A stretch of 64,000 nucleotides of DNA, from positions 51,457 through 115,456 of the forward strand of contig CAKZRR010000032.1 in NCBI GenBank assembly GCA_937146805.1, written 5' to 3'. The stretch comes from an uncultured Owenweeksia sp. (GTDB lineage: Bacteria; Bacteroidota; Bacteroidia; Flavobacteriales; Schleiferiaceae). A program made the translations under genes and the position numbers. Every line of letters begins with the position of its first letter. Within the stretch, counting starts at the first letter, position 1. Under the pieces are notes generated by a model. That model worked only from the letters and a program-made list of their open reading frames with translations, was not told the origin of the DNA and searched no databases. Positions 46,587 to 64,000 of this stretch are shown in pieces.

Positions 46587-49500
46587 ATGAGATTAAACCT
46601 ACACTTTTTAGCGGTAATACTTTTGTTTTCTGTTACAAGTATTGCTCAAATAGACAGCGCCACTTATGTTTTAGGCGATGTTTCTACAGAATTTAATAAT
46701 AATGTACAACTTGCGAGTGAGACTTTTGGTTGTGGCGATACACTTACCGTAAATATTGGAACCGGTAGATATGTTACTGGTATAGATGTGTATTATAGTA
46801 TGGAAGCGGATTCATTAGCCAATGCATGGGTTTCTGAGCAGCGGTCGTATTTAGAATTTGTAAATACCAACACCAAAGAAAATGCAATAGCGGCTGGCGA
46901 CCCTAATTGGGACAGCGCTGGTGTTTTAAGTTACAACAGGACTAATTTAAATATTGCCAATGGCTTACAAGCCACAGGTCAATTACAGTTCTTTTTACAT
47001 GCTTTTAGAACTTTTGGTAATAACCCATTTTGTGGTACTAACTTCCAAAATATTGTAGATAGTACTTGGAAAATAGTGGTGCATCACATTCCTGCACCTA
47101 CTTGCCCAGCGCCTACTGCTTTGGCAAGTGCCACTTACACTACTAATAGTATAGATTTAAATTGGACAACTGGAGGAGCCACTAATTGGCAAGTAGGTTA
47201 TCGCATAGCTGGCAGTACGGGAGCGTATACATTGGCAGCAACGACCACTAATCCTTTTACTTTAACGGGATTAACAGCGGGAATGCAATACGAAATTGGG
47301 GTTAGAGATAGCTGTGGATTGGCAGATGTAAGTTTTTGGACAGGAAGTATTCAAGCTCAGACAGCTTGTAACCCTATTGCGGCTCCTTGGTTAGAAAATT
47401 TTGATGGAGCCGGCTGGACAAGTGGTACTGGAGCGGGTAACGTGGGTAACGCTATTAATCTTTGTTGGAGCCGCCCTAATGGGAACCCTAATTTTGGTAC
47501 ACGCACAGGTCCTACTACTTCGGGTGCTTCAGGTCCATCGGCCGACTTTAGTGGAACAGGAAATTATATTTATACCGAGGCCAGTAATGGCGCCACTGGT
47601 GCGGGAGAAATTATTTCGCCCAGTGTTATTGTTTCAGGCAGTATTGCCAAACCACAGTTGCGATTTAGATCACATCTTTATGGAAATAATATTACTAGCT
47701 TAGAAGTTCAGGTGGATAATGGCAGCGGTTTTGGCGCCAGCTTGTTATCTATAGCTGGGCAGCAACAAACTGGAAATGCCGATGCGTGGTCTGAAGATAC
47801 TTTAGGTCTGTCCGCTTTTAGCGGAGATACTATCCGTATAAAGTTTATTGGTACTAATGCCGGTTTTAATGGTGATATTTCTATTGATGAGGTAGAAATT
47901 AGAGAGGCGCCAACCTGCTTTGAGCCTGATACGCTTTGGGCAAACTCGGCAAGTAGCACAGGTATTGACTTAGGTTGGCTTACAGGAGGAGCTAGCAATT
48001 GGCAAATAGGTTACCGGGTAAGTGGCAGTACGGGTGCTTTTACTTTGGTATCGGCCAATAGCAACCCTTTTTCTTTATCGGGTTTAAGCCCCGCCACTAT
48101 TTATGAAATTGTGGTAAAAGACAGTTGCGGAACAGGTAATTCCAGCGTTTGGTCTTTACCAATTACGGTAGGAACCTTGTGTAATCCTGCGGTTGCACCT
48201 TGGTCTGAAAATTTTGATGGTACTAACTGGACTTCAGGTGCTGGAGCCGCCAATGCAGGAAATTTAATTGATTATTGCTGGAGTCGTCCAGATGGCAATC
48301 CTCCTAACTTTGGAGTGCGTACAGCTGGTACAAACTCCGGTGCAACTGGTCCATCGACTGATGTTTCAGGTACAGGGAACTACTTATACACGGAGGCTTC
48401 CAATGGTTTGGGAACCGGAGAGGTTAGTACCGCTTGGGTAGTGGTTTCGAGCTCTATTGTAAATCCAACCTTAGAGTTTTCGTACCACATGTTTGGAAAC
48501 AACATTACCGATTTACAAATACAGGTAGATAATGGAACGGGTTTTGGCACTACTTTAAAAACCATCTCAGGCGCACAACAAACTGCCAGTACTGATGCAT
48601 GGAAAAAAGATACCTTGGATTTAACGGCTTTTAGTGGAGATACTATTCGCATCAAGTTTTTAGGAACCAACACTGGTTTTAATGGAGATATTGCCATTGA
48701 TGAAATTTCGATTGACGTGCCTCCTCCGTGTGTGGATCCACAAAACCTAACCTTGGATTTTGCTTGGATTAATACGGCATCGGTTGCTTGGACAACTGGA
48801 GGGGCAGCCAATTGGCAGTTAGAGTTTGGCACAACGGGATTTGTTGTTGGAGCCGGAACGCGAGTGGGAGTAAGTACTAATCCTGCCATTTTTAATGGAC
48901 TTTTACCAGCCACCACCTACGATGTGTATGTTCGTGATAGCTGCGGTGTAGGAGTAACTTCGGCCTGGGTAGGGCCTTTAACTTTTACAACGCTTTGCGC
49001 ACCTTATGCTACACCTTTTTCTGAAAACTTTGACAGTACCACCATTTGGACAACAGGTGCTAATAATGTGGCGCTTGGAACCATAGATAATTGCTGGAAT
49101 CGCTATCCAACAAATCAGTTTGCTTGGAAAACAGGACCAGCACCGCAGCAATCTACATTTGCAGGAACAGGGGTAGACCATACTACCGGCACAGGTCAAT
49201 TTATTTATTCCGAAAGAGTAGCCAATCCGGTAAACGGAATTGTGGAAGCCTTTATGGAAACACCACCTGTTTATATTAATGGACTTACCAACCCGCAACT
49301 TACTTTTTGGTACCATATGTATGGTAATTCCTTGGTAGGCTTAGAGGTAGAAATTAATACGGGCAGCGGCTGGACGAATATTTACACACGTAATGGTCAA
49401 CAACAAACTTCGGGCACCGACCCTTGGAAAGAAGCTGTTGTAAATTTATCGAGCTACAATGGTGATACGGTAGTGGTTCGCTTTATGAGTACCATTAATA

Positions 49501-52500
49501 ATGGGGGAACTAATAATGATGTTTCTATTGACGATGTTTCAATAGATGACGCACCTAGTTGTCCTAAACCACAAGATTTGGCGGTGATAGGTAATACTAA
49601 TAATACGGTTACATTAGGTTGGACATCAGGTGGTGCTACCACTTGGAATATTGAGTATGGAACCCCGGGCTTTACAGTGGGTACTGGAACCTACGTAACT
49701 GCTACTAGCAATCCATTTACTATTTCTGGTTTAATCGCGAATACACCTTATGAGTTTTATGTGAGAGATAGTTGCGGAGTAGCCGATGTTTCTCCTTGGG
49801 TAGGTTCAGATAGTGCTACTACCGATTGCAACCCGGTAGCAGCACCACTAGTAGCTAACTTTGATGGAACAGGTTGGACATTAGGAGTTGGGGGGAACCC
49901 CGGAAACTTGGATGCTTGTTGGAGGAGATTTCCGGAGGATAGTTATGTTTTTGAGCCAGGAACCAACGGTACGCCAACTAATGGAACAGGACCTTTAGGC
50001 GATAACACTTCCGGTACCGGTAAGTACTTGTACTCTGAAACGTATTTCAACTTTGGCGCGTTTAACCCGAATGAAGCCAGTGTGGTAAGCCCACTGGTAG
50101 ATGTGAGTGGTTTAATTAATCCCGAACTGGTTTTCTTTTATCACTTTTTTGGAAATGAAATTAACACGGTTGAGGTAAATGTATTTGACGGCAGCGCTTG
50201 GACGAACGTGCGAACTTACACGGGTCAGCAACAATTGGCCAGCGGAGATGCTTGGAAAGAAGAACGTATTGATCTTTTGGCTTTTGCCAATGATACTATT
50301 AAGGTAGAGATAAAAGCTATAAAGCAATTAGGTAACACCACTTTGGCTGATATGGCTATAGATGATTTCTCGATTGCTGAAATGCCGCTATGTCCAAAAC
50401 CAGATAGTTTAATGACGAGCAATGCCACTACTACAAGCATTGATTTGAATTGGATTAGTGGAGGGGCTAGCAACTGGGTAATCGAGTATGGTCCTGTTGG
50501 TTTTGCTCCTGGTACAGGAAGCAAGGTGTATGTAAATACCAACCCCTATACGGTATCGGGTTTAAACCCATCTACTACGTATGATTTTTATGTGCAGGAT
50601 AGCTGCGGTGTAGCAGTATTAAGTGATTCTATTGGGCCAGTATATGGCACCACAGTATGTGCTACTATTTCGGCTCCCTATTTTGAGCATTTTGATGGGC
50701 CTACGTTTAGTCCAGGCCCGCAAGGTTTTGGTGTAACAGGGTTTATGGATACTTGTTGGTCTAGGTTTCCTTATGGTACTTATTTTTGGAAACCAGGACC
50801 GTCCTTACCTCAAACTAACGGTACAGGTTCAACCATTGGAGATCATACCACAGGTAATGGTGGTTATGTATTTACAGAGTCGGGAGGTTTTGTAGGACCA
50901 CCACTTTCCGCTTGGTTGTTATCTCCCCCCATAAGTTTATCGCCTCTTACAACACCTGAGATGAGCTATTGGTACCATATGTTTGGGCCAAATGTCAATG
51001 ATTTATATGTAGAGATTTCCAATAATGGTGGAACTTCTTTTACGGCTGTAGATACTTTGAGTGGTAATCAACAGACAAGTCAAGCGGATGCTTGGAAAGA
51101 AGCGGTTATTGATATTTCGACTTATGCCAATGATACTATTTTGGTGCGCTTTAGAGCGGAGAAAACTTCGAATGGAAATCAGAGTGATATTTCGATTGAT
51201 GACTTGAGTATTCACGAGGCGCCATCTTGTCCTAAGCCAAATAATTTGGTAAGTACAGGAGCGGCTTCCAATAGCATTACCTTAAGCTGGACAAGTGGTG
51301 GAGCGAGCAATTGGAACATTGAGTATGGCCCAGTAGGTTTTACCCAAGGAAATGGTACGATTGTAAACGCAGCAAGCAATCCATTTACAGTTACAGGCTT
51401 AGCACCAAAAACGGGTTACTGTTTTTATGTGCGTGATAGCTGCGCGGTTGGTGATGTGAGTGAATGGTCTTTGGAGGCCTGTGATACCACCGATTGTGGT
51501 GTGTTTACTGCACCTTGGTCCGAAGGATTTGATGGAGCCGATTGGCAAACAGGTGCGGGAGCGCAAAATGCCAACCACCAAGTCTCCTCTTGTTGGAGTC
51601 GCCCATCCAATGCCAATCCTAATTTCAGCACCCGCTCGGGGGGCACAGGTTCGAATAATACGGGTCCTTCGGCTGATGTTTCGGGAACAGGTAACTATCT
51701 TTTTACCGAAGCCAGTGGAGGTGCACAGGGAACGGGTGAAATAACAAGCCCTCAAATATTTATTCCTTTAACTATCGGTAACCCTCGAATCACTTTTGCT
51801 TACCACATGTTTGGTACAGGTATCGATTCGTTAGAAGTACGCGTGAGTGTAAATGGAGGTGCTTTTAGCCGCATTGGTGGATTAGTTGGGGCGCAACAAA
51901 GTGCCAGTACAGATGCTTGGTTGCATGAGGATATTAGCATTTCGGGTAACTCAGGAGATACCATTCAAATACGCTTTTTAGGAACCAATAATGCCTTTGC
52001 AGGTGATATAGCTATTGATAGCGTGGTGGTAGAACAAGCACCAAATTGCCCTAATCCACAACAGTTATTAGTTACCAATGTAACAGCAACCACAGCAACT
52101 TTGGGATGGATAACTGGAGGAGCTACAAATTGGCAAATAGAATACGGTCCAGTGGGCTTTACTAATGGTACGGGAACTATTGTAGCGGCAGCTACAAACC
52201 CTTTTACCATTACCGGATTAAGCCCACAGACAGGTTATGATTTTTATGTACGAGATAGTTGCGGGGTAGCCGATGTAAGTATTTGGAGTGGTTTAGCGAG
52301 TGATACCACTAGATGTGGAGTTACCGCAGCTCCTTATTTCGAAAATTTTGACGGAAATACTTTTGTAGTAGGTGGCGCTTTTGGTAACCCTGGAAGTATT
52401 GATGCTTGTTGGGAAAGAACCTTTGCCACTAGCTATTTTTGGGCGGTAGAGCAAAACGGTACGGTGAGTGCTAATACAGGGCCTTCAAACGATCATACCA

Positions 52501-55187
52501 CGGGGGCAGGTAAATTTATGTTTACCGATGGAAATCAAACGGCTCAAAATACCGAGCTGATTTCACCTGATGTAGATCTAGCTCCTCTAACCAATCCGCA
52601 GTTGCGCTTTTGGTACCACATGTATGGTAATAGTATTGATAAGTTGGAAGTTGATGTTTGGGATGGTACGGCTTGGAACAATGTATGGATCCAAAATGGA
52701 CAGCAGCACAACGCTAGTAATGATCCATGGACAGAAGCAGTTGTAAGTCTTTCTGCCTTTACTGGCGATACCGTAAGGGTGCGAATGAATGGGTTTAGAG
52801 CAGGGTTTCAAACGTCTAATGATATGGCGATTGATGATTTTTGGATTGGCGATTCCACTTCGTGTGCTCGTCCTGATTCGTTGTTGTTAGTTTCTGCTAC
52901 GCAAACCTCATTAACGCTTTCTTGGAATAGTACTTCGGGCTTGGGTAGTGTGTTAAAGTATCGCCCGGCAGGGAGCGCTTCACCTTTTAGTTTTGCTTCT
53001 GTTTTGGGTAGCAGCACTACATTAAATGGTTTAACACCCTCTACCACCTACGAAATATTTGTGCGAGATAGTTGTGGTGCTACCGATGTGAGTTTATATA
53101 CATCAGGCGAGTTGTTTTCTACGCTTTGTGGTGTAGTGGTGGCTCCTTACTCGGAGAGTTTTAATGGAGCGGGCTGGGTGCCAGGTAATGGAAACACTAA
53201 TGTGGGTGATGAAATTCACACTTGTTGGATACGACCCACCAATACGGGTGTGCGTTTTACTACAGGTACAGGAACCACTCCTTCAAACGGAACCGGACCC
53301 ACCGGAGATGCTACTGGTGGTGGTCAATACCTCTATACAGAGGCCAGTATTGGGGCTGGTACTTCTGAAATAGAGAGTCCCATGATTGTGGTTTCTAGCT
53401 TTTTAGCCAATCCAGTTTTGGAGTTCTCATACCATATGTTTGGAAATGCTATTACCTCGCTAGCGGTGGAAATTGACAACGGAAGTGGGTATCAAAATGT
53501 GAAGACCATTACAGGTCAGCAGCAAACGGCCAATGCGGCACCTTGGTTAAGTGATACAGTTGATTTAACAAGTTATTTGGGAGATACAATACAAGTTAAG
53601 TTTATTGGTATTAATACCGCTTTTGGAGGTGATATTGCCATTGACGAAGTATCAGTAGATGGACAAGTGGTTAATTGTAGCCCACCCTCCAATATTGGTA
53701 TTACCGGTATTACTAGTACGGCCGCTCAGGTTTCTTGGACCAGTAATTCCAATAACTCAATTTTGGAAGTAGTGCCGGTAGGTCAAGCACAAGGAACCGG
53801 ATTGTTTTTTAGAGGAGTCACCTCACCATATAATGTGGGTCCATTGTTGCCAAACACCAATTACCGCGTGTATATAGCCGATAGCTGTGGTACAACACGT
53901 AGTACATGGATTGACACCACCTTTATGACCACTAACTGTTTGCCTTTAGCAGGCGGTATATCTTTTTCTAATGCAACGGCATCTAGCGTTACACTTACAT
54001 GGAATAGTAACTCTAATGTTTCCGAAATTGAAGCCGTACCTTTTGGTCAGGCGCAAGGAACCGGTATTTTATATACACCGGTGGTTTCACCACATGTAGC
54101 CGGAGGTTTAAGTACCAAAACACTCTACACTTTTTATGTGCGTGATTTGTGCGGATCTAATAGCAGTTCATGGATTTCGGATACGGCCTCTACAACAAGT
54201 TGTCCAGCGGTGGTGGCAGTTTTTACAGGTACGCCTAACCTGCTTACCATTGGCTTTAGCCGATCGGGAACAACAGGTGCTGATACCTTGAGCTGGGATT
54301 TCGGAGATGGAAATAGCACCATTGGTAATAACCCAAGTCATACTTATGGTGCAGCGGGTACCTATAAAGTAACTTTAACGGCTACTAATGCCTGCGGTAA
54401 TTGGGATACTACCAGTGCATACTTTACCATTTGTGATTCGCTAATTGCGGACTTTACCTTTACCGGAAGCAACAAGCAATATACGTTTGATGCTTCAGGT
54501 TCGGTTGGTGCAACTTCCTATCGATGGGATTTTGCTAGCCAGCACGACACTACAGGGGTTAATGTAGTGTACGAGTTTCCAACGGTGGGTACTAAACCCG
54601 TAACCTTATGGGTGTATAACTCTTGTGGAGATAGTACATCTGTCACTAAAAATGTAACGGTATGTTTAGCGCCTATTGCCGATTGGACTTATAATGTGGT
54701 AAGTACTACCAGTCAAGGTATGTTGGTACAATTTGATGGAACGGCTTCGCAAAATGCGGTGAATTATGATTGGGACTTTGGAGATGGAAATACTTCTACG
54801 GGTTCGGCCACACCTCAAAACTTGTATTTAACACCAGGCTTGTTTTACACGGTGCGTTTAACGGTAACCAACTCTTGTGGAGACAAAAATTCCAAAACAT
54901 TTAGGTTGGATCAAATTGGTCTTGAAGAGCTAGAGTTAGCCAATTATTTCAAATTGTACCCAAGTCCAGCTAGTAAGGTTGTAAATATTAGTTGGAGCTT
55001 GCCTAATGTGCAAATTCAAAAACTAGAGGTGAGAGACGTAAGCGGAAGATTATTGTTAGTGAAAGATAATTTTGCAGAACAAGATTTGGAAGTACAACTT
55101 AACGTAGAAAACTTGGCACAAGGTTTTTATTCAATAAAAGTGTTTAGCAATAAAGGAGTAATTACCAAGGAGTTTATAAGAGAATAA
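46587..55187 (+). CDS. Giant modular surface protein (FN3, MAM-like, PKD, T9SS domain)
   Basis: A 2866-residue secreted protein. Signal peptide at 1-20 (LLFSVTSIAQ), a unique domain to ~170, then a repeating pair of FN3 (~85 residues, with SWTSGGASNW, YEFYVRDSCG) and MAM-like domain (~170 residues: APWSENFDG, CWSRP, YLYTEASNG, FSYHMFGN, GDIAIDEV). I count eight MAM-like units starting near 262, 533, 804, 1081, 1358, 1640, 1911 and 2183, and ten FN3 units, the last two back to back (~2365, ~2448). Three PKD domains follow (~2538-2785, WDFGDGN), then a T9SS sorting domain (2785-2866: LYPSPASKVVNISW, ITKEFIRE). Probably an adhesin or matrix protein exported by the type IX system. No catalytic domain seen. 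A terminator follows. Confidence 0.93.
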   Translation: MRLNLHFLAVILLFSVTSIAQIDSATYVLGDVSTEFNNNVQLASETFGCGDTLTVNIGTGRYVTGIDVYYSMEADSLANAWVSEQRSYLEFVNTNTKENAIAAGDPNWDSAGVLSYNRTNLNIANGLQATGQLQFFLHAFRTFGNNPFCGTNFQNIVDSTWKIVVHHIPAPTCPAPTALASATYTTNSIDLNWTTGGATNWQVGYRIAGSTGAYTLAATTTNPFTLTGLTAGMQYEIGVRDSCGLADVSFWTGSIQAQTACNPIAAPWLENFDGAGWTSGTGAGNVGNAINLCWSRPNGNPNFGTRTGPTTSGASGPSADFSGTGNYIYTEASNGATGAGEIISPSVIVSGSIAKPQLRFRSHLYGNNITSLEVQVDNGSGFGASLLSIAGQQQTGNADAWSEDTLGLSAFSGDTIRIKFIGTNAGFNGDISIDEVEIREAPTCFEPDTLWANSASSTGIDLGWLTGGASNWQIGYRVSGSTGAFTLVSANSNPFSLSGLSPATIYEIVVKDSCGTGNSSVWSLPITVGTLCNPAVAPWSENFDGTNWTSGAGAANAGNLIDYCWSRPDGNPPNFGVRTAGTNSGATGPSTDVSGTGNYLYTEASNGLGTGEVSTAWVVVSSSIVNPTLEFSYHMFGNNITDLQIQVDNGTGFGTTLKTISGAQQTASTDAWKKDTLDLTAFSGDTIRIKFLGTNTGFNGDIAIDEISIDVPPPCVDPQNLTLDFAWINTASVAWTTGGAANWQLEFGTTGFVVGAGTRVGVSTNPAIFNGLLPATTYDVYVRDSCGVGVTSAWVGPLTFTTLCAPYATPFSENFDSTTIWTTGANNVALGTIDNCWNRYPTNQFAWKTGPAPQQSTFAGTGVDHTTGTGQFIYSERVANPVNGIVEAFMETPPVYINGLTNPQLTFWYHMYGNSLVGLEVEINTGSGWTNIYTRNGQQQTSGTDPWKEAVVNLSSYNGDTVVVRFMSTINNGGTNNDVSIDDVSIDDAPSCPKPQDLAVIGNTNNTVTLGWTSGGATTWNIEYGTPGFTVGTGTYVTATSNPFTISGLIANTPYEFYVRDSCGVADVSPWVGSDSATTDCNPVAAPLVANFDGTGWTLGVGGNPGNLDACWRRFPEDSYVFEPGTNGTPTNGTGPLGDNTSGTGKYLYSETYFNFGAFNPNEASVVSPLVDVSGLINPELVFFYHFFGNEINTVEVNVFDGSAWTNVRTYTGQQQLASGDAWKEERIDLLAFANDTIKVEIKAIKQLGNTTLADMAIDDFSIAEMPLCPKPDSLMTSNATTTSIDLNWISGGASNWVIEYGPVGFAPGTGSKVYVNTNPYTVSGLNPSTTYDFYVQDSCGVAVLSDSIGPVYGTTVCATISAPYFEHFDGPTFSPGPQGFGVTGFMDTCWSRFPYGTYFWKPGPSLPQTNGTGSTIGDHTTGNGGYVFTESGGFVGPPLSAWLLSPPISLSPLTTPEMSYWYHMFGPNVNDLYVEISNNGGTSFTAVDTLSGNQQTSQADAWKEAVIDISTYANDTILVRFRAEKTSNGNQSDISIDDLSIHEAPSCPKPNNLVSTGAASNSITLSWTSGGASNWNIEYGPVGFTQGNGTIVNAASNPFTVTGLAPKTGYCFYVRDSCAVGDVSEWSLEACDTTDCGVFTAPWSEGFDGADWQTGAGAQNANHQVSSCWSRPSNANPNFSTRSGGTGSNNTGPSADVSGTGNYLFTEASGGAQGTGEITSPQIFIPLTIGNPRITFAYHMFGTGIDSLEVRVSVNGGAFSRIGGLVGAQQSASTDAWLHEDISISGNSGDTIQIRFLGTNNAFAGDIAIDSVVVEQAPNCPNPQQLLVTNVTATTATLGWITGGATNWQIEYGPVGFTNGTGTIVAAATNPFTITGLSPQTGYDFYVRDSCGVADVSIWSGLASDTTRCGVTAAPYFENFDGNTFVVGGAFGNPGSIDACWERTFATSYFWAVEQNGTVSANTGPSNDHTTGAGKFMFTDGNQTAQNTELISPDVDLAPLTNPQLRFWYHMYGNSIDKLEVDVWDGTAWNNVWIQNGQQHNASNDPWTEAVVSLSAFTGDTVRVRMNGFRAGFQTSNDMAIDDFWIGDSTSCARPDSLLLVSATQTSLTLSWNSTSGLGSVLKYRPAGSASPFSFASVLGSSTTLNGLTPSTTYEIFVRDSCGATDVSLYTSGELFSTLCGVVVAPYSESFNGAGWVPGNGNTNVGDEIHTCWIRPTNTGVRFTTGTGTTPSNGTGPTGDATGGGQYLYTEASIGAGTSEIESPMIVVSSFLANPVLEFSYHMFGNAITSLAVEIDNGSGYQNVKTITGQQQTANAAPWLSDTVDLTSYLGDTIQVKFIGINTAFGGDIAIDEVSVDGQVVNCSPPSNIGITGITSTAAQVSWTSNSNNSILEVVPVGQAQGTGLFFRGVTSPYNVGPLLPNTNYRVYIADSCGTTRSTWIDTTFMTTNCLPLAGGISFSNATASSVTLTWNSNSNVSEIEAVPFGQAQGTGILYTPVVSPHVAGGLSTKTLYTFYVRDLCGSNSSSWISDTASTTSCPAVVAVFTGTPNLLTIGFSRSGTTGADTLSWDFGDGNSTIGNNPSHTYGAAGTYKVTLTATNACGNWDTTSAYFTICDSLIADFTFTGSNKQYTFDASGSVGATSYRWDFASQHDTTGVNVVYEFPTVGTKPVTLWVYNSCGDSTSVTKNVTVCLAPIADWTYNVVSTTSQGMLVQFDGTASQNAVNYDWDFGDGNTSTGSATPQNLYLTPGLFYTVRLTVTNSCGDKNSKTFRLDQIGLEELELANYFKLYPSPASKVVNISWSLPNVQIQKLEVRDVSGRLLLVKDNFAEQDLEVQLNVENLAQGFYSIKVFSNKGVITKEFIRE

Positions 55188-55208: not shown

Positions 55209-55243
55209 AAAGGCCTTCTTGAAATTTCAAGAAGGCCTTTTTT
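55209..55243 (+). terminator. Terminator after the giant surface protein
   Basis: A perfect 32-bp palindrome (55209-55240; half-site AAAGGCCTTCTTGAAA) followed by further T. It separates the surface-protein gene from the six-gene operon. Confidence 0.88.
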
Positions 55244-55400: not shown

Positions 55401-56675
55401 ATGTCAAACAAATCAATACAACCCACCAAGCTTAGTAAGGAGATAGATAAGCTGAATATAATTGAGAAATATTCGGAACAGGTTGAGGAGCGGACTAATA
55501 ATTTTACGGACAATCAGGAAGGCTTCAATAAAGACCAAGGACGTGAGGGTGCCAAGCAACGCATTTCCTTCTTAAAAAAAATGAAGATAGAAACACCCCA
55601 TGTAAGTGGTGGGGCGGAATCGCTCAAGTTTGAGGAGTTGAACGGAAATATTGAAAACTTTATTGGAATGGCACAAGTGCCCATAGGCTTAGCAGGGCCT
55701 TTAAAAGTAAAAGGGCCGCAAACCAACGAGGATTTTTTTGTTCCACTGGCTACCACCGAAGGAGCGCTGGTAGCATCGTATAATAGAGGAATGAAAGCTT
55801 GTTTTGCAAGTGGAGGTGTAACATCGGTATGTTTGATTGAAAACATGCAACGTTGTCCGTTTTTTAAGTTTAGCGACATCTTAGAAGTAGGTCGATTTAT
55901 AAAATGGGTTCATCAAAATATGGAGCGGTTTAGGTCTATAGTTTCTGAATCTAGTCGTTTTGCGGAGCTTATCGAAATCCGATCTAACATTGAAGGTAAC
56001 AGTGTTATTTTAACATTTGAGTTCTCAACCGGTGATGCCGCTGGACAAAATATGGTGACCATTTGTACCGATAAAGTTTGCAAGTATATTTTAGAAAACT
56101 TTAGTATTAAGCCTGTTGAGTGGTATATCGAGAGTAACTATGCTGGCGATAAAAAGGCCACGGCTCTTTCTTTTTCCAGCGCACGCGGAAAAAAGGTTAC
56201 CTCTGAAATAATACTGCCAGAAAAAGTATTGGGAACAGTTTTGAAAACCAGCGCACAAAAAATGGCGAAATACTGGCAAGCGGCCACTTTATCGGTGATA
56301 CAAAGTGGTGCCATTGGAGCTCAAGGCCATGTTGCCAATGGTTTAACTGCTCTTTTTGTAGCATGTGGGCAGGATGTTGCGTGCATTGCAGAGTCTGCGG
56401 TGGGGCTTACCCGTATGGAAGTTGTTAATGATGGTGATTTGTATGTGTCGGTTACATTGCCCTCATTGGTGGTGGGTACCATTGGTGGTGGTACAGGATT
56501 GTCAACCCAAAAAGAGTGTTTAGAAATGTTGGGCTGCTATGGGGTGGGTAAAGTTGAAAAATTTGCTGAAATAGCCACAGCACTGGTACTTGCAGGTGAG
56601 GTGTCAATCGCAGCAGCCATGTCTGTTGATCATTTTACCAAGGCACATGAAAACTTAGGAAGAAAGAATGGATAA
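55401..56675 (+). CDS. Class I HMG-CoA reductase-like enzyme
   Basis: Homologue of class I 3-hydroxy-3-methylglutaryl-CoA reductase, which makes mevalonate with NADPH. The 424 residues keep the core motifs: ENFIGMAQVPIGLAGPL, ATTEGALVASYNRG with catalytic Glu120, GDAAGQNMVT, NYAGDKKATA with Lys251, ACGQD with Asp315, GTIGGGTGLSTQKECLEMLG and the C-terminal His416 in FTKAH. All four catalytic residues are thus present. It differs from housekeeping HMGRs in segments such as GAIGAQGHVANG and has no membrane anchor. It starts a six-gene operon; the next gene overlaps by 8 nt. Either it makes mevalonate for a dedicated isoprenoid or acts on a related thioester. Confidence 0.88.
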   Translation: MSNKSIQPTKLSKEIDKLNIIEKYSEQVEERTNNFTDNQEGFNKDQGREGAKQRISFLKKMKIETPHVSGGAESLKFEELNGNIENFIGMAQVPIGLAGPLKVKGPQTNEDFFVPLATTEGALVASYNRGMKACFASGGVTSVCLIENMQRCPFFKFSDILEVGRFIKWVHQNMERFRSIVSESSRFAELIEIRSNIEGNSVILTFEFSTGDAAGQNMVTICTDKVCKYILENFSIKPVEWYIESNYAGDKKATALSFSSARGKKVTSEIILPEKVLGTVLKTSAQKMAKYWQAATLSVIQSGAIGAQGHVANGLTALFVACGQDVACIAESAVGLTRMEVVNDGDLYVSVTLPSLVVGTIGGGTGLSTQKECLEMLGCYGVGKVEKFAEIATALVLAGEVSIAAAMSVDHFTKAHENLGRKNG

Positions 56676-57609
56676 GAATGAGGAAAATAGTCGCTCCTTT
56701 TTAGCTCGCTTTTTAATTTATCAAAAAGAAAGATTTCCGGTGCTAGCACACGGCATAATGATTTTAGCCTTTACATTTTCGGCTGTGTCTTATTCCCGTA
56801 TTTGCAGAGGTCAAACAGGTTTTATTGATGGTTTTGATTTTGCCATCGGTGTGTTTGCCACTATAACCCTCTTTTTTTTGGTTCGCATTTTTGATGAATT
56901 TAAAGACAAAGAAGACGATGCCAAATACCGATCTTATTTACCGGTTCCAAGAGGGCTAATAAGTTTAAAGGAGTTGCAAATTACTGGTTGGGTTGTGATA
57001 ATTCTACAACTACTTGTTTTGGCGGTATTTCAAGGGGCCATGCTGTATTTATACTTAGTGGTATTGGCTTATTTGCTGTTAATGCGGGTCGAATTTTTTG
57101 TTCCTACTTGGCTAAAAAAAAGACAGTTAGCATATATATTGTCTCATATGCTAATCATTCCATTGGTAGATATGTATGCCAGTGGTTTAGATTGGTTGCT
57201 TGATGGAGCCGAACCGCATTGGGGCTTAGTTTGGTTTTTTGCAGTTTCGTATGTAAACGGTTTGGTGCTTGAGTTTGGCCGAAAAATGAAGGCGCCAGGT
57301 TTTGAGGAGGTAGGAGTGGTGTCTTATACCGGTTTATACGGTAGCCGAGGTGGCCCTATTATTTGGATAGTTTTGTTGTTGTTCACCATGCTTTTGGCGA
57401 TGGGTGCTTCTGTTTACACCAACTACGGATGGATGGCTCACTTAGTTTTTGCCCTCTTTTTTGTTTTATGTTCTTTACCCGGCTGGATGTTTTTGATAAA
57501 ACCAACTGTTAAAAAGGCCAAGTTGATGGAATATGCTTCTGTGATTTGGACTGCACTTATGTATTTAGCTTTGGGCGGAATACCCATGCTTACTAATTTA
57601 CTATTTTGA
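56668..57609 (+). CDS. UbiA-family prenyltransferase-like membrane protein
   Basis: A 313-residue protein with about eight or nine membrane segments. It has the first UbiA Asp-rich motif, FDEFKDKEDD (Asp76, Asp80, Asp83/84), followed by SYLPVPRGLISL, as in enzymes that move a prenyl group from its diphosphate to an acceptor. The second motif, normally DxxxD, reads LEFGRKMKAPGFEEVGVVSY, so the metal site may be altered. Overlaps the HMGR-like gene by 8 nt and the phosphotransferase gene by 4. Acceptor unknown. Confidence 0.8.
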   Translation: MDKNEENSRSFLARFLIYQKERFPVLAHGIMILAFTFSAVSYSRICRGQTGFIDGFDFAIGVFATITLFFLVRIFDEFKDKEDDAKYRSYLPVPRGLISLKELQITGWVVIILQLLVLAVFQGAMLYLYLVVLAYLLLMRVEFFVPTWLKKRQLAYILSHMLIIPLVDMYASGLDWLLDGAEPHWGLVWFFAVSYVNGLVLEFGRKMKAPGFEEVGVVSYTGLYGSRGGPIIWIVLLLFTMLLAMGASVYTNYGWMAHLVFALFFVLCSLPGWMFLIKPTVKKAKLMEYASVIWTALMYLALGGIPMLTNLLF

Positions 57610-60176
57610 AATATTTATTATCACCAAAAGACATTAACCTCCAAACCAATGTTGGTGGTAAGGCAGCCAACCTTAAAAAGCTTGTAGCCCTAGGTTACAA
57701 GGTGCCAAAATGGGTGGTGCTTTCGCAAGATTTTTTAAGTGAGGAGGTTAAGGATAAAGTTTTGCCAGAATATAGAGTTGAGGTGCCGCAAGAAATACTG
57801 GGTGAGCTGTCAGAGTATTTTGGGAATTCGGCCAAAGAAAAAACTTTTGCTGTACGTTCATCGGCAGTGCAAGAAGATGGTGAGCAACACTCATTTGCTG
57901 GCCAGTTTGAAAGTTTTTTACACGTACCATTTAATCAGATTAGAGAAAAAATAAAAGCCGTTTGGTTATCGGCAAACTCAGATAGAGTGAAAGCCTATCG
58001 CACCGAAAAAGGTTTGGCAGCTGAAAATGGTATGGCTGTATTAATACAAGAAATGGTAGAGGGCGATGTTTCGGGGGTAGCCTTTGGGGTTGATCCGGTA
58101 TTATACAACACTGATAAAAAGGTTGTTAGTGCTGTATTTGGCTTGGGTGAAGGCTTGGTGTCTGGCGATTTAAATGCAGATACGTTTACAGTTTCTAAAA
58201 ACGGAATAGATCAAAACATTGTTCAAAAGACTCATGCTTTTGTAAAAGACTCATCTCAAGAAGGTTGTGTAAAGCAGGTGGTGCCTATTGAGGATCAACA
58301 AAAGCCATCTCTTGTCAAAGAGCAAATTGAGGCTGTTTGCCAAATTTTGGACGAGTTGGAGAAATCCTTGGGGGAGCCCCAAGATGTTGAGTTTACCTAT
58401 GCTAAGGGTGAATTATACTTGCTGCAAACAAGACCCATAACTACAAAGGCTACCACTAAACAAGGTGAATATATTTTATGGGATAATAGCAATATAATAG
58501 AGTCCTACCCTGGAATAACAACACCACTAACGTTCTCTTTTATCTTAAAAATGTATGAGCAGGTATATCGGCAGTTTAGTCGAATAATGGGCGTACGTCA
58601 AAAGGATATTGAGACCCATGCCTCGGTTTTTGCAAATACCTTGGGTTTGGTTAGAGGCCGTGTATATTACAACTTGCTCAATTGGTACAAAATGTTGGCG
58701 ATGCTACCAGGCTACTCCATAAACGCAGAGAATATGGAGCGAATGATGGGTGTGAAGGAGCGTTTTGAGCTAAAGGAAGACTATCAAATGAGCAAAGGCT
58801 TGGCATGGTTTAGAACCTTTAGCATGTTAGTTAACATGCTAAGAATGCAAGTGAGGCTTCCGCGTGATCGTAAAAAGTTTGTGCGTCACTTAAACAAGGT
58901 GATGGATGAATACAACGCATTAAACTTTGGTGATTTAAAACCTAAAATAATAATTGAACATTACCAGAGTTTTGAGCAAAATCTATTGCTACAGTGGAAA
59001 GCGCCCTTGGTAAATGATTTTTTTGCCATGATTTGGTTTGGTATGTTGCAAAAACAAACCACTAAATATGCTGCTCAGCATCCAAATATTCATAATGATT
59101 TGCTTTGCGGAAGTCAAGATATAATCTCCACACAACCAATACATCGGTCTATAGAACTGGCTGCACTGGTGGTCAAGCATAAAGAGGCACATAAACTTTT
59201 TGAAAGTGAATTAGCCAACAAGGTGTGGGATGAGCTAAAAGAAGGCGCTTTTCCGGAGATAAAAGGAAAGATCGATGAGTACATCAATAGTTTTGGGGAA
59301 CGCTGTGTGGGTGAACTCAAGCTCGAAACGGTTTCGTATTCGCAAAACCCTGCTCTGTTTGTTAGGGTAATACAAGCCTATGTAAGTCAAGGGATTACAA
59401 AAAGTAAGTCGCATAATAACATTGAGGATGAAATTAGGTTAAAAGCTGAAAAACATCTTAGCCAAAGCTTTAAGCGTAAACCTATTAAAAGATGGTGGTT
59501 TAATGTGATTTTAAACAAAACCCGTGATTTGGTGAGTAACCGCGAAAATCTCCGGTACCAACGTACTCGTGGTTTTGGTATGGTGCGTAACATGTTTAAT
59601 GCCATAGGTATGGCTTGGTTTAAAGAGGGTTTGTTAGATTCGGCTGCGGATGTTTTTTATTTGGAATTGCCGGAAATTGTAGAGGCAGCAGAAAAAGGTT
59701 TTAACCACAGTTATTACGATAAAATACAAATGCGTAAGCAGGAGTTTGGAGCCTATAGAGAACAGTTACCACCTATGGAGCGTTTTTTTACATACGGCAA
59801 TAGTTTTACCGATGATTATATCTATTCGCTTGAAAAAGTGGAGGGTAAAGAAATGGATTTAGAGGGCATTGGTTGTTGCCCTGGAGTGGTGCAGGGCAAA
59901 GTTTGCGTAGTTACAAACCCAGGAGAAATAAGCTCCCTGAATGGTGATATTCTGGTAACAAGCAGCACGGATCCGGGTTGGGTAACTTTGTTTCCTACGG
60001 CTGGGGCCATTTTGGTTGAAAGAGGAAGTTTGCTGAGTCATTCGGCTATTGTTTCTCGAGAAATGGGTATTCCTTGTATTGTAGGCGTATCAGGCTTATT
60101 GCGAAGCTTAAAAACTGGAGATAAAATACTGATGGATGGGAGTACAGGAAAAATAAGTGTATTAGAGTATGCCTAG
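57606..60176 (+). CDS. Rifampin-phosphotransferase/PEP-synthase-like phosphotransferase
   Basis: An 856-residue three-part enzyme. N-terminal PEP/pyruvate-binding ATP-grasp domain (~10-290: VGGKAANLKKL, AVRSSAVQEDG, QEMVEGDVSGVAFGVDP, PQDVEFTYAKGELYLLQTRP); a long helical middle (~295-745, opening with ILWDNSNIIESYPG); and a C-terminal swivelling His domain with catalytic His812 in GSLLSHSAIVSREMGIPCIVG. Length and layout match rifampin phosphotransferase, which moves the ATP beta-phosphate through the His to a small molecule, rather than PEP synthase itself, as the C-terminal PEP/pyruvate barrel is missing. Starts with TTG in a TTGA overlap with the UbiA stop. In this cluster a lipid or prenol acceptor is plausible, by inference. 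Confidence 0.85.
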   Translation: MKYLLSPKDINLQTNVGGKAANLKKLVALGYKVPKWVVLSQDFLSEEVKDKVLPEYRVEVPQEILGELSEYFGNSAKEKTFAVRSSAVQEDGEQHSFAGQFESFLHVPFNQIREKIKAVWLSANSDRVKAYRTEKGLAAENGMAVLIQEMVEGDVSGVAFGVDPVLYNTDKKVVSAVFGLGEGLVSGDLNADTFTVSKNGIDQNIVQKTHAFVKDSSQEGCVKQVVPIEDQQKPSLVKEQIEAVCQILDELEKSLGEPQDVEFTYAKGELYLLQTRPITTKATTKQGEYILWDNSNIIESYPGITTPLTFSFILKMYEQVYRQFSRIMGVRQKDIETHASVFANTLGLVRGRVYYNLLNWYKMLAMLPGYSINAENMERMMGVKERFELKEDYQMSKGLAWFRTFSMLVNMLRMQVRLPRDRKKFVRHLNKVMDEYNALNFGDLKPKIIIEHYQSFEQNLLLQWKAPLVNDFFAMIWFGMLQKQTTKYAAQHPNIHNDLLCGSQDIISTQPIHRSIELAALVVKHKEAHKLFESELANKVWDELKEGAFPEIKGKIDEYINSFGERCVGELKLETVSYSQNPALFVRVIQAYVSQGITKSKSHNNIEDEIRLKAEKHLSQSFKRKPIKRWWFNVILNKTRDLVSNRENLRYQRTRGFGMVRNMFNAIGMAWFKEGLLDSAADVFYLELPEIVEAAEKGFNHSYYDKIQMRKQEFGAYREQLPPMERFFTYGNSFTDDYIYSLEKVEGKEMDLEGIGCCPGVVQGKVCVVTNPGEISSLNGDILVTSSTDPGWVTLFPTAGAILVERGSLLSHSAIVSREMGIPCIVGVSGLLRSLKTGDKILMDGSTGKISVLEYA

Positions 60177-61266
60177 CCAACTAAAAAAAGTAGCACACAA
60201 TTATTTAAGGTATGCCAACTGCTGGGAAGATGCTGATGTGCTTATAAAAGCGTTAAACATTGAGCCAGATGATGAGGTGTTGTCCATCGCATCGGCTGGA
60301 GATAATACGTTTTCAATTTTGGCACAAGCACCTAAAAAAGTGGTGGCGGTAGATGTTAATGTAGCGCAACTAAAGTTGGTAGAACTTAAAAAAGCTGCTT
60401 TTGAACAATTGAATTACTCTGAGTTTTTACAGTTTTTGGGTTTTACCGAGAGTGAAAGTCGGTTGGTGTTTTTTGAAAAGGTAAAACTGGGTTTATCCAA
60501 AAGTGCGGTGCAATATTGGAGTAGTCGAAGGCCGCAAATTCAAGCAGGTATTATTTATCAGGGTAAATTTGAAAAATACTTTAACACTTTTAGAAAGAGG
60601 GTATTGCCTCTTATTCATTCGCGTAAGCATATAGATAAATTATTTAGCTCAAAAGGTGAGAAAGAACAGTTTGCTTTTTACAATAAAACATGGAATAGCT
60701 GGCGTTGGAGAGCTCTTTTTAAGTTTTTTTTTAGCGAGTGGCTAATGGGTAGATTGGGGCGCGACCCGCAGTTTTTAAAAGAGGTAGAGGTACCTGTTGC
60801 TGATTTTATTTTGGAAAAGTCACGTGTTCACCTGAGTAGTGTTTTGTGCCAAAAAAATTACTTTTTACACTTTATACTTAAAGGGAGTTTCGGCAATAGC
60901 TTGCCGCACTATGCTCGTGCCGAAAACTTTGATAAGATTAAGAACAACATAGGGAGACTGGAGCTTTATGAGGGATTTGCGGAAAGTGCGATGCATAAGC
61001 ATAAGAGCATTTCCAAGTTTAACTTGTCAAACATATTTGAGTACATGCCTTCACTTGTGTTTGATGAAATATCGGCTAAACTGGTTTTACAGAGTGCTCC
61101 AAAGGCGCACTTTGTGTATTGGAATTTAATGGTTCCAAGAAGAATGTCGGTAAACACTACTGGCTTGGAGCAATTACCAGGTTTGGCGCAGGACTTGCAT
61201 CGGGTGGACAAGGGTTTTTTTTACGGAAATTTAATCATTGAAAATAAAGTTCAATCGAAAATTTAA
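60169..61266 (+). CDS. BtaA/DUF3419-like aminocarboxypropyl transferase
   Basis: A 365-residue cytoplasmic or membrane-attached protein of the DUF3419 family, whose studied member BtaA transfers the 3-amino-3-carboxypropyl group of S-adenosylmethionine to diacylglycerol in betaine-lipid synthesis. The signature YANCWEDADVLIKAL, the SAM-site VLSIASAGDNTFSIL and VVAVDVNVAQLKLVELKKAAFE near the N terminus are conserved. No btaB-type methyltransferase lies beside it. The gene overlaps the phosphotransferase gene by 8 nt. With a prenol kinase and a GNAT gene next door, the acceptor could be an isoprenoid rather than diacylglycerol; this is inference. Confidence 0.82.
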   Translation: MPSQLKKVAHNYLRYANCWEDADVLIKALNIEPDDEVLSIASAGDNTFSILAQAPKKVVAVDVNVAQLKLVELKKAAFEQLNYSEFLQFLGFTESESRLVFFEKVKLGLSKSAVQYWSSRRPQIQAGIIYQGKFEKYFNTFRKRVLPLIHSRKHIDKLFSSKGEKEQFAFYNKTWNSWRWRALFKFFFSEWLMGRLGRDPQFLKEVEVPVADFILEKSRVHLSSVLCQKNYFLHFILKGSFGNSLPHYARAENFDKIKNNIGRLELYEGFAESAMHKHKSISKFNLSNIFEYMPSLVFDEISAKLVLQSAPKAHFVYWNLMVPRRMSVNTTGLEQLPGLAQDLHRVDKGFFYGNLIIENKVQSKI

Positions 61267-61322
61267 ACAATAGCGTATATCTGGCGATAGCTTTTTTAGT
61301 ACTATTTGCTAGTGCCGAATGG

Positions 61323-61916
61323 TTGTATCATAAAGGTACAAGGGTAGAGCTAACGCGAAAATATGTGCATGTTGTAACAGGCTTGTTGGCATTGCTTTTT
61401 CCGGTTTTGTTGAGCAATCACTGGTGGGTTTTGGGCTTGTGTTCAAGCTTTTTGGTTTTGTTGGCGGTTTCAATTTGGTTAAAAAAATTGCCGTCAATTA
61501 ATAATGTGGCTCGAAAAACAAGTGGTAGTATTTTGTACCCCGTGGTGGTATATGGGTGTTTTTTGGTATTTGTAAAGTACACGGCTATGGAGATGTACTA
61601 CGTGCCCATTTTAATATTAGCAATTTGCGACCCTTTAGCAGCTTTGTTTGGTAAAAAGTGGCCTGTTATGCCGTATAAAACATTTGGTTATTCAAAAACA
61701 GGAGTAGGGTCTTTGGCATTTTTTAGCAGTGCTTTTTGCTTGTCTTTTTTATTATTGTTGTTTTTTAAACCTTCACTGCCTTTCGGTGTTTTATTGGTTT
61801 CGTTGCAAGTAGCTACTGTTACTACGTTGGCAGAAGCTATAACCCATAAGGGATTTGATAACTTAACTATTCCGCTTAGTGCTTTGTTGGTTTTAACTTT
61901 AAATATTGCCTGGTAA
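61323..61916 (+). CDS. Dolichol/phytol-kinase-family membrane protein
   Basis: Shown from the TTG at 61323 (197 residues), but the true start is probably earlier: the frame stays open to 61254, adding a membrane helix (YLAIAFLVLFASAEWLY), and an ATC at 61254 would overlap the preceding stop as in the rest of the operon. Family marks are RKYVHVVTGL (His in the first helix pair), AICDPLAALFGKKW, YKTFGYSKTGVGSLAFF and AEAITHKGFDNLTIPL, all typical of CTP-dependent dolichol and phytol kinases (SEC59, VTE5). It would phosphorylate a prenol at the membrane. Next gene overlaps by one nt (TAATG). Confidence 0.82.
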   Translation: MYHKGTRVELTRKYVHVVTGLLALLFPVLLSNHWWVLGLCSSFLVLLAVSIWLKKLPSINNVARKTSGSILYPVVVYGCFLVFVKYTAMEMYYVPILILAICDPLAALFGKKWPVMPYKTFGYSKTGVGSLAFFSSAFCLSFLLLLFFKPSLPFGVLLVSLQVATVTTLAEAITHKGFDNLTIPLSALLVLTLNIAW

Positions 61917-62929
61917 TGGAAGGAGTTAGTTGGGTAAAAACATTTCCGGGAGCAAACAATTTTTCGCTGTTCGAAAGCTTGCCGTCAAAAATTTATCCAC
62001 CAAGCAGCCCCTATTTCAAATCCCTTAATACACCTCAGTTCACTTTTTTAGAAGGATGCTATGTGATGCTTTTAAAAGAGGTGCCTGTAGGACGTTTTGC
62101 GTTGTATCAAAATCCTTATTTAAAACATAAGGGCCAGCCTGCTATAGCGTTGGGTAGTTATGAGTGTATTGATAATCATAGTGTTGCTGAGGTATTGCTG
62201 GCTTATGCAAAAACTAATGCAAGTAAAATGGGTTGTTCATGGCTTTTGGGTCCCATGGAAGGGAGTACTTTTAATAATTATCGGTTTAGTAAAAGCTGGG
62301 AGCGCCCTTTGTTTTTTATGGAGCCGTATCACCATTTATACTACAACCAACAGTTTGTAAAGGCTGGCTTTAAAGAGTTAGCGTCTTATTACTCTGCCGA
62401 AAATACCGAGCCAGATTACAATGCTGAAAAATTAGCCAAGTTTGAGCAATACTTTGTAGAAAAGGGAGCAGTTTTTAGAAATATAAACCTCAAAAACTTA
62501 CGAGATGATTTATTGAAAATTGCCCAGTTTAATGAGGTCGTATTTTCTAAAAACAAGTATTATACGCCTATTCCAATTCAGGCTTTTGCAGATAAGTACG
62601 CAAGAATGGAATCGTACCTTAATCCTGATTTAATTTGGATTTTGGAAGATAAGCATGAAGAGATGCATGCTTTCGCATTTGCCATTCCTGATTATTTTGA
62701 TGTTAAAGAAGAAACAGTGATTGTAAAATCCGTGGCTTGCAAGGGAGGTTCGCCATTTAAAGGGGCGGGTAGCTTTTTAAGCGGTAAAATAAACCAAGTG
62801 GCCCTACAAAGCGGCTATAAAAAGTTGATTCATGCGTTTATGCTCAAAAGTAATGAGTCAACCCGTATTTCCAATAAGTATGGTGGAAACACTATTAGGG
62901 AGTATGCTCTTTATGGGAAAAAACTATAA
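61916..62929 (+). CDS. GNAT-like acyltransferase
   Basis: A 337-residue protein of the GNAT-superfamily type: an N-terminal half with SWLLGPMEGSTFNNYRF and FFMEPYHHLYYNQQFVKAGF, the pattern of a large uncharacterised GNAT family (GPM-G-ST--YR then EPY--YY), and a C-terminal half with HAFAFAIPDYF, IVKSVACKGG and HAFMLKSNESTRISNKYGG. A role in N-acylating an amine is inferred from the family. It is the sixth gene of the operon, one nt overlap with the kinase gene. A seventh start (ATGCTAAAAAGATTTTTC, 62931) follows directly, then the contig changes character. Confidence 0.78.
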   Translation: MEGVSWVKTFPGANNFSLFESLPSKIYPPSSPYFKSLNTPQFTFLEGCYVMLLKEVPVGRFALYQNPYLKHKGQPAIALGSYECIDNHSVAEVLLAYAKTNASKMGCSWLLGPMEGSTFNNYRFSKSWERPLFFMEPYHHLYYNQQFVKAGFKELASYYSAENTEPDYNAEKLAKFEQYFVEKGAVFRNINLKNLRDDLLKIAQFNEVVFSKNKYYTPIPIQAFADKYARMESYLNPDLIWILEDKHEEMHAFAFAIPDYFDVKEETVIVKSVACKGGSPFKGAGSFLSGKINQVALQSGYKKLIHAFMLKSNESTRISNKYGGNTIREYALYGKKL

Positions 62930-62933
62930 AATG

Positions 62934-64000
62934 CTAAAAAGATTTTTCAAAATAGTTTTGGTTCCGAGAAAGATGATAAATACTATCGCTACTCACACGC
63001 AAAAGCTCCCCCACTTGCACAGCATTCAAGAGCGGATATTTTGCTCGAACTAAACCAGCCACACCTGCTACGACAGGTGCTGCCATAGACGAACCTGTTG
63101 CTTCAGAATAATTAGAGCTTGAAAATGTCGTGTAAATTGAACCTCCAGGGGCAAGTAAATCAATGTTTGTATTGTATGTGGCTTTTGCACCACAAGAGCC
63201 ACAATTAACGGTTTGCCCTGACTTATCCGAATGCGTAACAGAAGTAACATATTTGTACGATGCTGGATAATAATCATGTTCGTAACCATCATTTCCTGCG
63301 GCAGCTACAACCAAAACATTCTTTTCTAATGTAACATACTCAATAATATCTTGTTCCCACTGTAATGGAATCCCAGGATTTCCTAAAGACATATTAATAA
63401 TACTTGCTCCATTTTCCGCTGCATACAAAATTGCTTCATAGACCTTGACAGAAACAAGTGAGTTATTAAAAACCTTGAGTGGCATTACTCTACAATTAAA
63501 ACCAGTCGAGGTAATACGTACAGATACCTCGGGATTTGCGGGATCTGTATTGTCTACCTTTTTCTCTACCAAAACATAGGCACACCCTGAATCAAGAAAA
63601 GGTCTACCAAATACAATTCCAGGTACTTCTTGAGCTTCAGATGCGTAACGAAAAACAAATGAATCAGTATAGTTGTCACCTCCTGTTCTAACATTCAAAC
63701 GCTCAGCTCTTGGGTTACCTGCACCACAACGCATTCCAGGGCTGCTGTACGAAGAAGGTTGACCGGCTGGAAAATAAGTCGTCTCCGGTGCTGGAATATG
63801 AGCAGACACATCGTAAAACAATGCACATTCAAGCGCCGAATCAGCCGCATAGAATGCCACCTGTGATTCACGTGCATATGAAGATAGTACCAGCTGTTTC
63901 TGAACAAGATTATACACCCCACCAGAAATTAACAACATCAACGAAGAAACCAGCATTGCAAATAAAATTACAAAACCTTTTTTTGAATGTATGTATTTTT
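62934..64000 (-). CDS. Chimeric frame: prepilin-like protein joined to subtilase fragment, runs off the window
   Basis: One open frame from the window edge (ATG at 63956 is internal) to TAG at 62934-62936. The upstream part (64000 to about 63495) reads KKGFVILFAMLVSSLML with a G|F prepilin-type cleavage site, then SSYARESQVAFYAADSALECALF and VSVRITSTGFN, the pattern of PilX/pilin-like proteins of Patescibacteria. The rest is an S8 subtilase segment: MPLKVF, AAENGASIINMSLGNPG, VLVVAAAGNDG, SVTHSDKSG, NIDLLAPGGSIYTTFSS and catalytic Ser in ATGSSMAAPVVAGVAGL; the Asp and His regions are missing. It ends abruptly at NQNYFEK where subtilases go on. The joined product is unlikely to be a natural protein. 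Confidence 0.6.
   Translation of the reverse strand, partial: KYIHSKKGFVILFAMLVSSLMLLISGGVYNLVQKQLVLSSYARESQVAFYAADSALECALFYDVSAHIPAPETTYFPAGQPSSYSSPGMRCGAGNPRAERLNVRTGGDNYTDSFVFRYASEAQEVPGIVFGRPFLDSGCAYVLVEKKVDNTDPANPEVSVRITSTGFNCRVMPLKVFNNSLVSVKVYEAILYAAENGASIINMSLGNPGIPLQWEQDIIEYVTLEKNVLVVAAAGNDGYEHDYYPASYKYVTSVTHSDKSGQTVNCGSCGAKATYNTNIDLLAPGGSIYTTFSSSNYSEATGSSMAAPVVAGVAGLVRAKYPLLNAVQVGELLRVSSDSIYHLSRNQNYFEKSF
62937..62955. other. Suspected chimeric junction 1
   Basis: Host-like sequence (sixth gene stop and a new MLKRFFKI start at 62931) passes into the C-terminal part of a subtilase on the other strand. The A/T-rich overlap makes the exact point uncertain. Confidence 0.5.
63486..63500. 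other. Suspected chimeric junction 2
   Basis: On the minus strand the pilin-like ITSTGFN passes directly into subtilase NCRVMPLKVF; both families could supply the shared Asn-Cys, so micro-homology may have joined them. Confidence 0.5.

Follow-up and report, generated by a model that had tools for sequence, protein, structure and literature searches.

What do six overlapping genes, all read in one direction near the end of a contig from an uncultured Owenweeksia sp., make together? The 64,000-nucleotide stretch analyzed here (the window; contig CAKZRR010000032.1 of assembly GCA_937146805.1, positions 51,457 to 115,456) carries on its forward strand a relative of 3-hydroxy-3-methylglutaryl-CoA (HMG-CoA) reductase (HMGR; g1), a UbiA-like membrane protein (g2), a phosphotransferase resembling phosphoenolpyruvate (PEP) synthase and rifampin phosphotransferase (RPH) (g3), a DUF3419 protein resembling BtaA (g4), a small membrane protein (g5) and a GNAT-like protein (g6). 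Successive genes overlap by 8, 4, 8, about 0 (g4/g5) and 1 nucleotides (nt). A first-pass annotation had described the six as one operon for a new amino-lipid, and its gene coordinates, direction and overlaps agree with the open reading frames of the window. We read them as the first six genes of a seven-gene pathway making a membrane amino-lipid with a head group derived from S-adenosylmethionine (SAM), a reading to which we give a probability of about 45%. The six genes listed at first pass are real, but the seventh (g7), encoding an OleC-like adenosine monophosphate (AMP) ligase, was missed since the window stops at the contig end.

Using an alignment of 35 g6 relatives as the search profile, we obtained 126 confirmed loci and took the best 80 as canonical loci; because the profile was built from g6, all 80 carry it by design. 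All seven genes occurred in a single order and on a single strand in 50 of these 80 loci, and the first six did so in 51, while no locus (0/80) showed cluster genes in any other order or strand; g7 was present in 74. Given the order and strand kept in 50 of 80 loci, we rejected a chance neighborhood. Many of the incomplete sets reflect truncation by contig ends. With starts taken from the longest open frames, so that overlaps are overcounted, gaps of at most 60 nt separated g1-g2 in 42 of 49 cases, g2-g3 in 50 of 55, g3-g4 in 55 of 63, g4-g5 in 65 of 68 and g5-g6 in 66 of 68; the g6-g7 junction was looser (53 of 72, with more than 300 nt in 16 of 72).

Conservation of the neighborhood, which had been proposed as a check of the operon, was thus found in many related genomes and also on a plasmid from another phylum. 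Carriers include the named isolates Dyadobacter fermentans, Parapedobacter defluvii and Sphingobacterium gobiense, and among 12 genomes of the Schleiferiaceae, the window's own included, a true g6 and a true g7 occur in the same three. The plasmid, from the alphaproteobacterium Roseinatronobacter sp. S2, holds UbiA, PEP/pyruvate-binding, DUF3419, g5-like, g6-like and AMP-binding genes in the order of the cluster, preceded by an HMGR-like gene that spans the record start. Its g5-like protein carries an extra membrane part. The plasmid proteins share 30-48% identity with those of the cluster, although the alignment of the last one spans just 174 residues. A whole cluster between two AMP ligases also occurs in a record titled Candidatus Gastranaerophilales (L107), perhaps through a binning error.

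The g7 gene is not in the window, whose end is the end of its contig (C32), and lies in the same genome at C2:560-2035, directly after an SRPBCC-like gene. In locus L033 such a gene follows g6, which makes it probable that the unit continues from C32 into C2; we found no shared sequence joining both contigs. An SRPBCC-like gene is present in 12 of the 80 canonical loci. Contig C2 (L125, 1-564) opens with a perfect palindrome, followed by the SRPBCC-like gene, here without its usual start, and then g7.

The DUF3419 protein and its partners in variant loci

According to PMC10685587, BtaA belongs to the DUF3419 family and forms diacylglycerol-O-homoserine from diacylglycerol and SAM. The g4 protein is a member of the same family (PF11899, 228.5 bits against a cut-off of 28.2), with no solved relative found by sequence, and a SAM-derived four-carbon head group would be expected from it as from the BtaA/BtaB pathway to diacylglyceryltrimethylhomoserine. 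Unlike that pathway, the cluster has no adjoining BtaB, its DUF3419 protein falls in a separate clade, and six more enzymes accompany it. DUF3419 matches at E 1e-10 or better are present in 44 of 395 genomes of the Bacteroidota phylum. We built a tree of 60 sequences with the root chosen on a Rhizobium leguminosarum DUF3419 protein adjoining a SAM methyltransferase gene; the cluster proteins of the three locus types described below (types I-III) formed one clade (0.975) and BtaB-linked Bacteroidota proteins another (0.999), with weak deeper nodes. When 19 other DUF3419 genes were inspected (L146-L164, flanks of about 1.5 kb), 16 had a BtaB-like neighbor and none a g6-like one, and BtaB stood beside none of the cluster-like DUF3419 genes in 30 loci. 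Nor was BtaB adjacent in any of the 80 canonical loci, where the one weak match, in L054, lay about 6 kb away from g6. We therefore rejected g4 as a BtaA that partners BtaB, on the grounds of its separate clade and the lack of an adjoining BtaB (the control loci covered about 1.5 kb to either side).

DUF3419 genes also occur in other settings. Loci L147-L164 come from Bacteroidota of family f38 and others in which DUF3419 lies beside a BtaB-like gene, and betaine lipids are likely there. Plasmid-borne copies follow genes for ketoacyl-acyl carrier protein synthase III and CoF synthetase in Rhizobium (L202, 3983-5056) and precede speD in Deefgea (L203, 3911-4993).

The 30 variant loci fetched around cluster-like DUF3419 genes show which partners are kept and which are swapped. 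A g6-like gene was present in 23 and missing from L172, L180, L188, L190, L193, L194 and L195, some of them on very short contigs, and a g5-like or YegS-like kinase was present in 24. HMGR occurred in 12 of 30, and two of the 28 loci displayed had a thioester reductase of family PF07993; g3 accompanied the reductase in all 14. Type I loci combine HMGR and the AMP ligase in several gene orders (for example g6-g7-g1-g2-g3-g4-g5), and g7 and g1 are neighbors in six f52-type loci (L165, L167, L168, L189, L191 and L198). Type II loci (L166, L170 and L179) have a phosphatidylserine decarboxylase, g3, a g6-like gene and either a lipid kinase or g5, with UbiA and the PF07993 thioester reductase also present in two of the three. 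Type III loci (L171, L183, L185 and L186, with L184 and L187 partial) have a g6-like gene, joined in the four full ones by a YegS-type lipid kinase and a pyridoxal phosphate (PLP) decarboxylase; no HMGR, UbiA, g3 or AMP ligase was recognized in this type. Both type III members that were scanned, L171 and L185, encode a PEMT domain and a class II aldolase-like protein, and L185 an ABC exporter. MMPL-type proteins adjoin L170, L190 and L197. In the DUF3419 tree the type II locus L170 is nested within type I, which fits an exchange of modules.

Among the canonical loci, six of the 80 carry CDP-alcohol phosphotransferase-like genes and five CdsA-like ones. Together with the lipid-metabolism enzymes, PEMT N-methyltransferase and exporters of the variants, these genes are our main ground for a lipid product. 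The amino-lipid proposed at first pass is accordingly supported in part: a lipid with a SAM-derived head is favored, by the lipid head-group enzymes found in variant loci centered on the DUF3419 and GNAT-like pair, but its mevalonate step is disfavored by the comparisons that follow.

The reductase and the remaining enzymes

The g1 protein shares with class I HMG-CoA reductases the fold and the catalytic Glu, Lys, Asp and His, which are kept in all 51 cluster copies and were seen too in 13 further copies. The human pocket, as listed in PMC7503714, comprises Ser684, Asp690, Lys691, Lys692 and Asp767 with Glu559, Lys735, Asn755, Leu853 and His866. Five solved HMGRs that we compared retain both Ser684 and Lys735, but the Ser684 place is Glu in 64 of 64 copies (the 51 plus the 13, one of these from the plasmid). 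No cluster copy has Lys where HMMER places the Lys735 column (position 295); a gap lies near by, however, and 21 of the 51 copies and 6 of the 13 show Lys or Arg at position 293.

The genomic setting also differs from that of a mevalonate enzyme. We searched 48 genome handles, including two repeats (G113 with the same matches as G067, and G140 as G074), for PF00368, mevalonate-diphosphate decarboxylase (TIGR01240), IspG and HMG-CoA synthase; completeness is stated for only a minority of these genomes. PF00368 matched in 47 of 48. Decarboxylase at E <1e-40 was found in 17, with nine more showing only weak matches of 20-24 bits, and exactly those 17 genomes hold a second, weaker HMGR match (291-310 bits). 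The window's own genome has both the strong decarboxylase match and the second HMGR, which meets the class II model TIGR00532 (the only one of the 17 scanned), so its cluster HMGR is not the sole HMGR of the genome, a finding that had been named in advance as one that would count against the operon if reversed. IspG was present in 33 of 48 genomes, without a strong decarboxylase in 31, with both in 2 (G132 and G138), and the reverse combination held in 15. Of the 31 with IspG only, 29 have one HMGR, G109 two and G125 none. HMG-CoA synthase, matched in 3 of 48 although 17 of 48 have the decarboxylase, was uninformative as a pathway marker. We rejected g1 as the housekeeping HMGR because of the second HMGR in its own genome and the 31 of 48 genomes with IspG and no clear decarboxylase. 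It is likely a repurposed relative of HMG-CoA reductase. The second HMGR of G109 (L199, G109:C203), from the uncultured Microscilla genome that holds L093, has the Glu as well, with no cluster around it in the 5.3 kb fetched.

For g2, a profile search gave digeranylgeranylglyceryl phosphate synthase, an ether-lipid prenyltransferase of the UbiA superfamily, as best solved match (E 5.6e-9). The window protein falls just below the PF01040 cut-off (31.9 against 34.2 bits), and the Roseinatronobacter plasmid copy above it (43.9). The first Asp-rich motif of g2 is conserved as D76xxxD80xxxD84. Where UbiA prenyltransferases have DxxxD as the second motif, the g2 proteins of type I have a conserved ExGRK..EE block instead, and those of type II nearly the same block. 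The g3 protein has the ATP-binding domain and the conserved swivelling-domain His of RPH and PEP synthase, but remains far under the curated cut-offs of either (RPH 285 of 999 bits; nearest PEP-synthase model 766 of 883); PRK06241-type models of NCBIfam cover nearly its full length, below cut-off. The automatic names 'HMG-CoA reductase' and 'PEP synthase' for cluster genes are likely misleading.

No Pfam family was assigned to the g5 window protein, nor did it have a relevant match in NCBIfam or, by sequence, among solved structures in PDB; among its relatives CTP_transf_1 matched weakly in 1 of 17 (E 4.4e-5). We call it a probable lipid kinase because of its presumed likeness to prenol kinases (SEC59/VTE5 family) and because YegS-type kinases take its place in some variant loci. 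The g6 window protein has no PF00583 match and one irrelevant Pfam family below threshold; PF00583 is precomputed for a minority of its relatives, the plasmid copy reaches E 0.097, and no solved relative by sequence was better than E 0.09. The closest models to g7, in the L033 copy, are PRK09274 (342 bits of a cut-off of 478) and OleC (179.5 of 900). It resembles OleC-type AMP ligases in these matches and in its RHxxKI motif, but differs in falling below both cut-offs and in that no OleA, OleB or OleD was recognized among the conserved neighbor families, only some of which were identified.

Proposed pathway and competing explanations

From these family resemblances we infer two modules and an order of steps. 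A head-group module would comprise g4, g6 and a lipid kinase, either g5 or the YegS-type kinase found instead in some loci; g4 would transfer the 3-amino-3-carboxypropyl group of SAM to a hydroxyl of a lipid, and the product of that transfer would be acylated by g6. In an alcohol-building module, g7 probably activates an acid as the source of a CoA thioester, not HMG-CoA, from which g1 would form an alcohol by reduction. Phosphorylation of this alcohol would fall to g5 and g3, and the UbiA-like g2 would move it onto an acceptor, possibly glycerol. Homoserine transfer by g4, kinase action by g5 and N-acylation by g6 are all predictions by homology. We think it unlikely that the fullest version holds throughout, namely a mobile seven-gene pathway to undescribed bacterial ether amino-lipids in which the HMGR-derived reductase supplies the alcohol, two phosphotransfers and UbiA give a glyceryl ether, and the BtaA cousin and the GNAT protein add and acylate the SAM-derived head. 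A literature search, mostly of titles and abstract openings with few subscription papers covered, found no description of this cluster among the papers listed.

Should the amino-lipid reading hold, the DUF3419 (BtaA) family would have a second use, linked to GNAT proteins, and the fold of HMG-CoA reductase would serve outside mevalonate metabolism, where it is not known to have a role. Many Bacteroidota have been described with unidentified aminolipids, of which the cluster is a testable source, and the named cultured carriers allow the product to be sought directly.

Several observations weigh against this reading. Not all incomplete canonical loci are explained by contig ends: L071, L074 and L083 have no nearby g1, L045 has g5 and g6 only, L058 g6 and g7 only, L089 and L112 g6 alone, and L098 has g6 near a contig end without g7; further exceptions are L061, without g5, and L077, with g4 to g7. 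In the variant set, L192 and L196 are type I-like with no reductase near by, and in type III the partners of g4 and g6 are a methyltransferase and a PLP decarboxylase of the soluble type, a poor fit to N-acylation by g6. UbiA enzymes use allylic diphosphates, which an ordinary alkyl alcohol would not yield, and the matches behind the kinase identity of g5 are weak. The enzyme activities and the lipid are predictions from the genes.

Among other explanations, the reductase might act on the head group instead: g7 would activate the amino-acid head made by g4 and g1 would reduce its carboxyl to an amino alcohol, with Glu244 binding the amino group, to give a sphingoid-like SAM-derived head. This would account for a Glu placed where HMGR faces the substrate carboxylate and for the presence in each variant type of one candidate for handling a carboxylate (AMP ligase, phosphatidylserine decarboxylase or PLP decarboxylase), but two of the three type II loci hold both a thioester reductase and a decarboxylase, and the reductase there probably uses another substrate; we consider it rather improbable. 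We give similarly little credence to a soluble or secreted small molecule, a metallophore or signal, in place of a membrane lipid. SAM aminocarboxypropyl transfer also yields soluble metallophores, OleC-like ligases are found in natural-product clusters, and both the patchy spread noted above (3 of 12 same-family genomes, including the window's own) and the plasmid copy are in keeping with such a product; however, the variants carry lipid-metabolism enzymes and amphiphile-type exporters, and both g2 and g5 are similar to lipid-metabolizing membrane enzymes.

The cluster HMGR could also still form mevalonate, either to be built into the product or to add to the isoprenoid supply. Its catalytic residues and most of its fold are kept (387 bits to PF00368), and in the 21 of 51 copies where a basic residue precedes the Lys735 column by two positions, misalignment might explain the missing Lys. 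The invariant Glu at the Ser684 place and the 31 of 48 genomes with ispG and no clear mevalonate-diphosphate decarboxylase make mevalonate formation by g1, as assigned in the first-pass annotation, very unlikely, and we retain the reduction of another CoA thioester in the amino-lipid pathway.

Coordinates and flanks of the operon

Positions of the six genes and of one upstream element are collected in Table 1. For g5 the first usual start (ATG/GTG/TTG) is a TTG at 61323; the open frame extends back to 61248, over the end of g4, and the relatives compared begin near the g4 stop, at about the same place as the open-frame start, so that an overlap of about 0 for g4/g5 is fair.

Table 1. Features of the six-gene operon and its upstream flank, in window positions
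Feature	Position	Strand	Assignment	Basis
g1	55401..56675	+	HMG-CoA reductase-like enzyme, Glu244 at the place of human Ser684	PF00368 (HMG-CoA_red) 387 bits; pocket residues
g2	56668..57609	+	UbiA-like membrane protein	PF01040 31.9 bits; Asp motifs; nearest solved match
g3	57606..60176	+	PEP-synthase/RPH-like phosphotransferase, swivelling-domain His812	PF01326 (PPDK_N), PF00391 (PEP-utilizers); conserved His
g4	60169..61266	+	DUF3419 (BtaA-like) protein	PF11899 228.5 bits; tree, neighbors
g5	61248..61916 (open frame)	+	Small membrane protein, likely lipid or prenol kinase	Relatives; CTP_transf_1 in 1/17; YegS swaps
g6	61916..62929	+	GNAT-like acyltransferase	PF00583 on some relatives; conserved GPMxGSTWxxYRFS block
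Palindrome then T run, before g1	55210..55243	+	Possible terminator of preceding gene	Seen in sequence

A consensus scan did not list the palindrome at 55210-55243. Directly before the operon, at 46587-55187, the window encodes a 2866-residue repeat protein with a signal-like start. Beyond g6, an odd open frame on the reverse strand (62934-64000) reaches the contig end, with a PilX_N-like start (weak, E 0.025) and a subtilase end; it sits where the cluster should continue, perhaps through a misjoin or an insertion.

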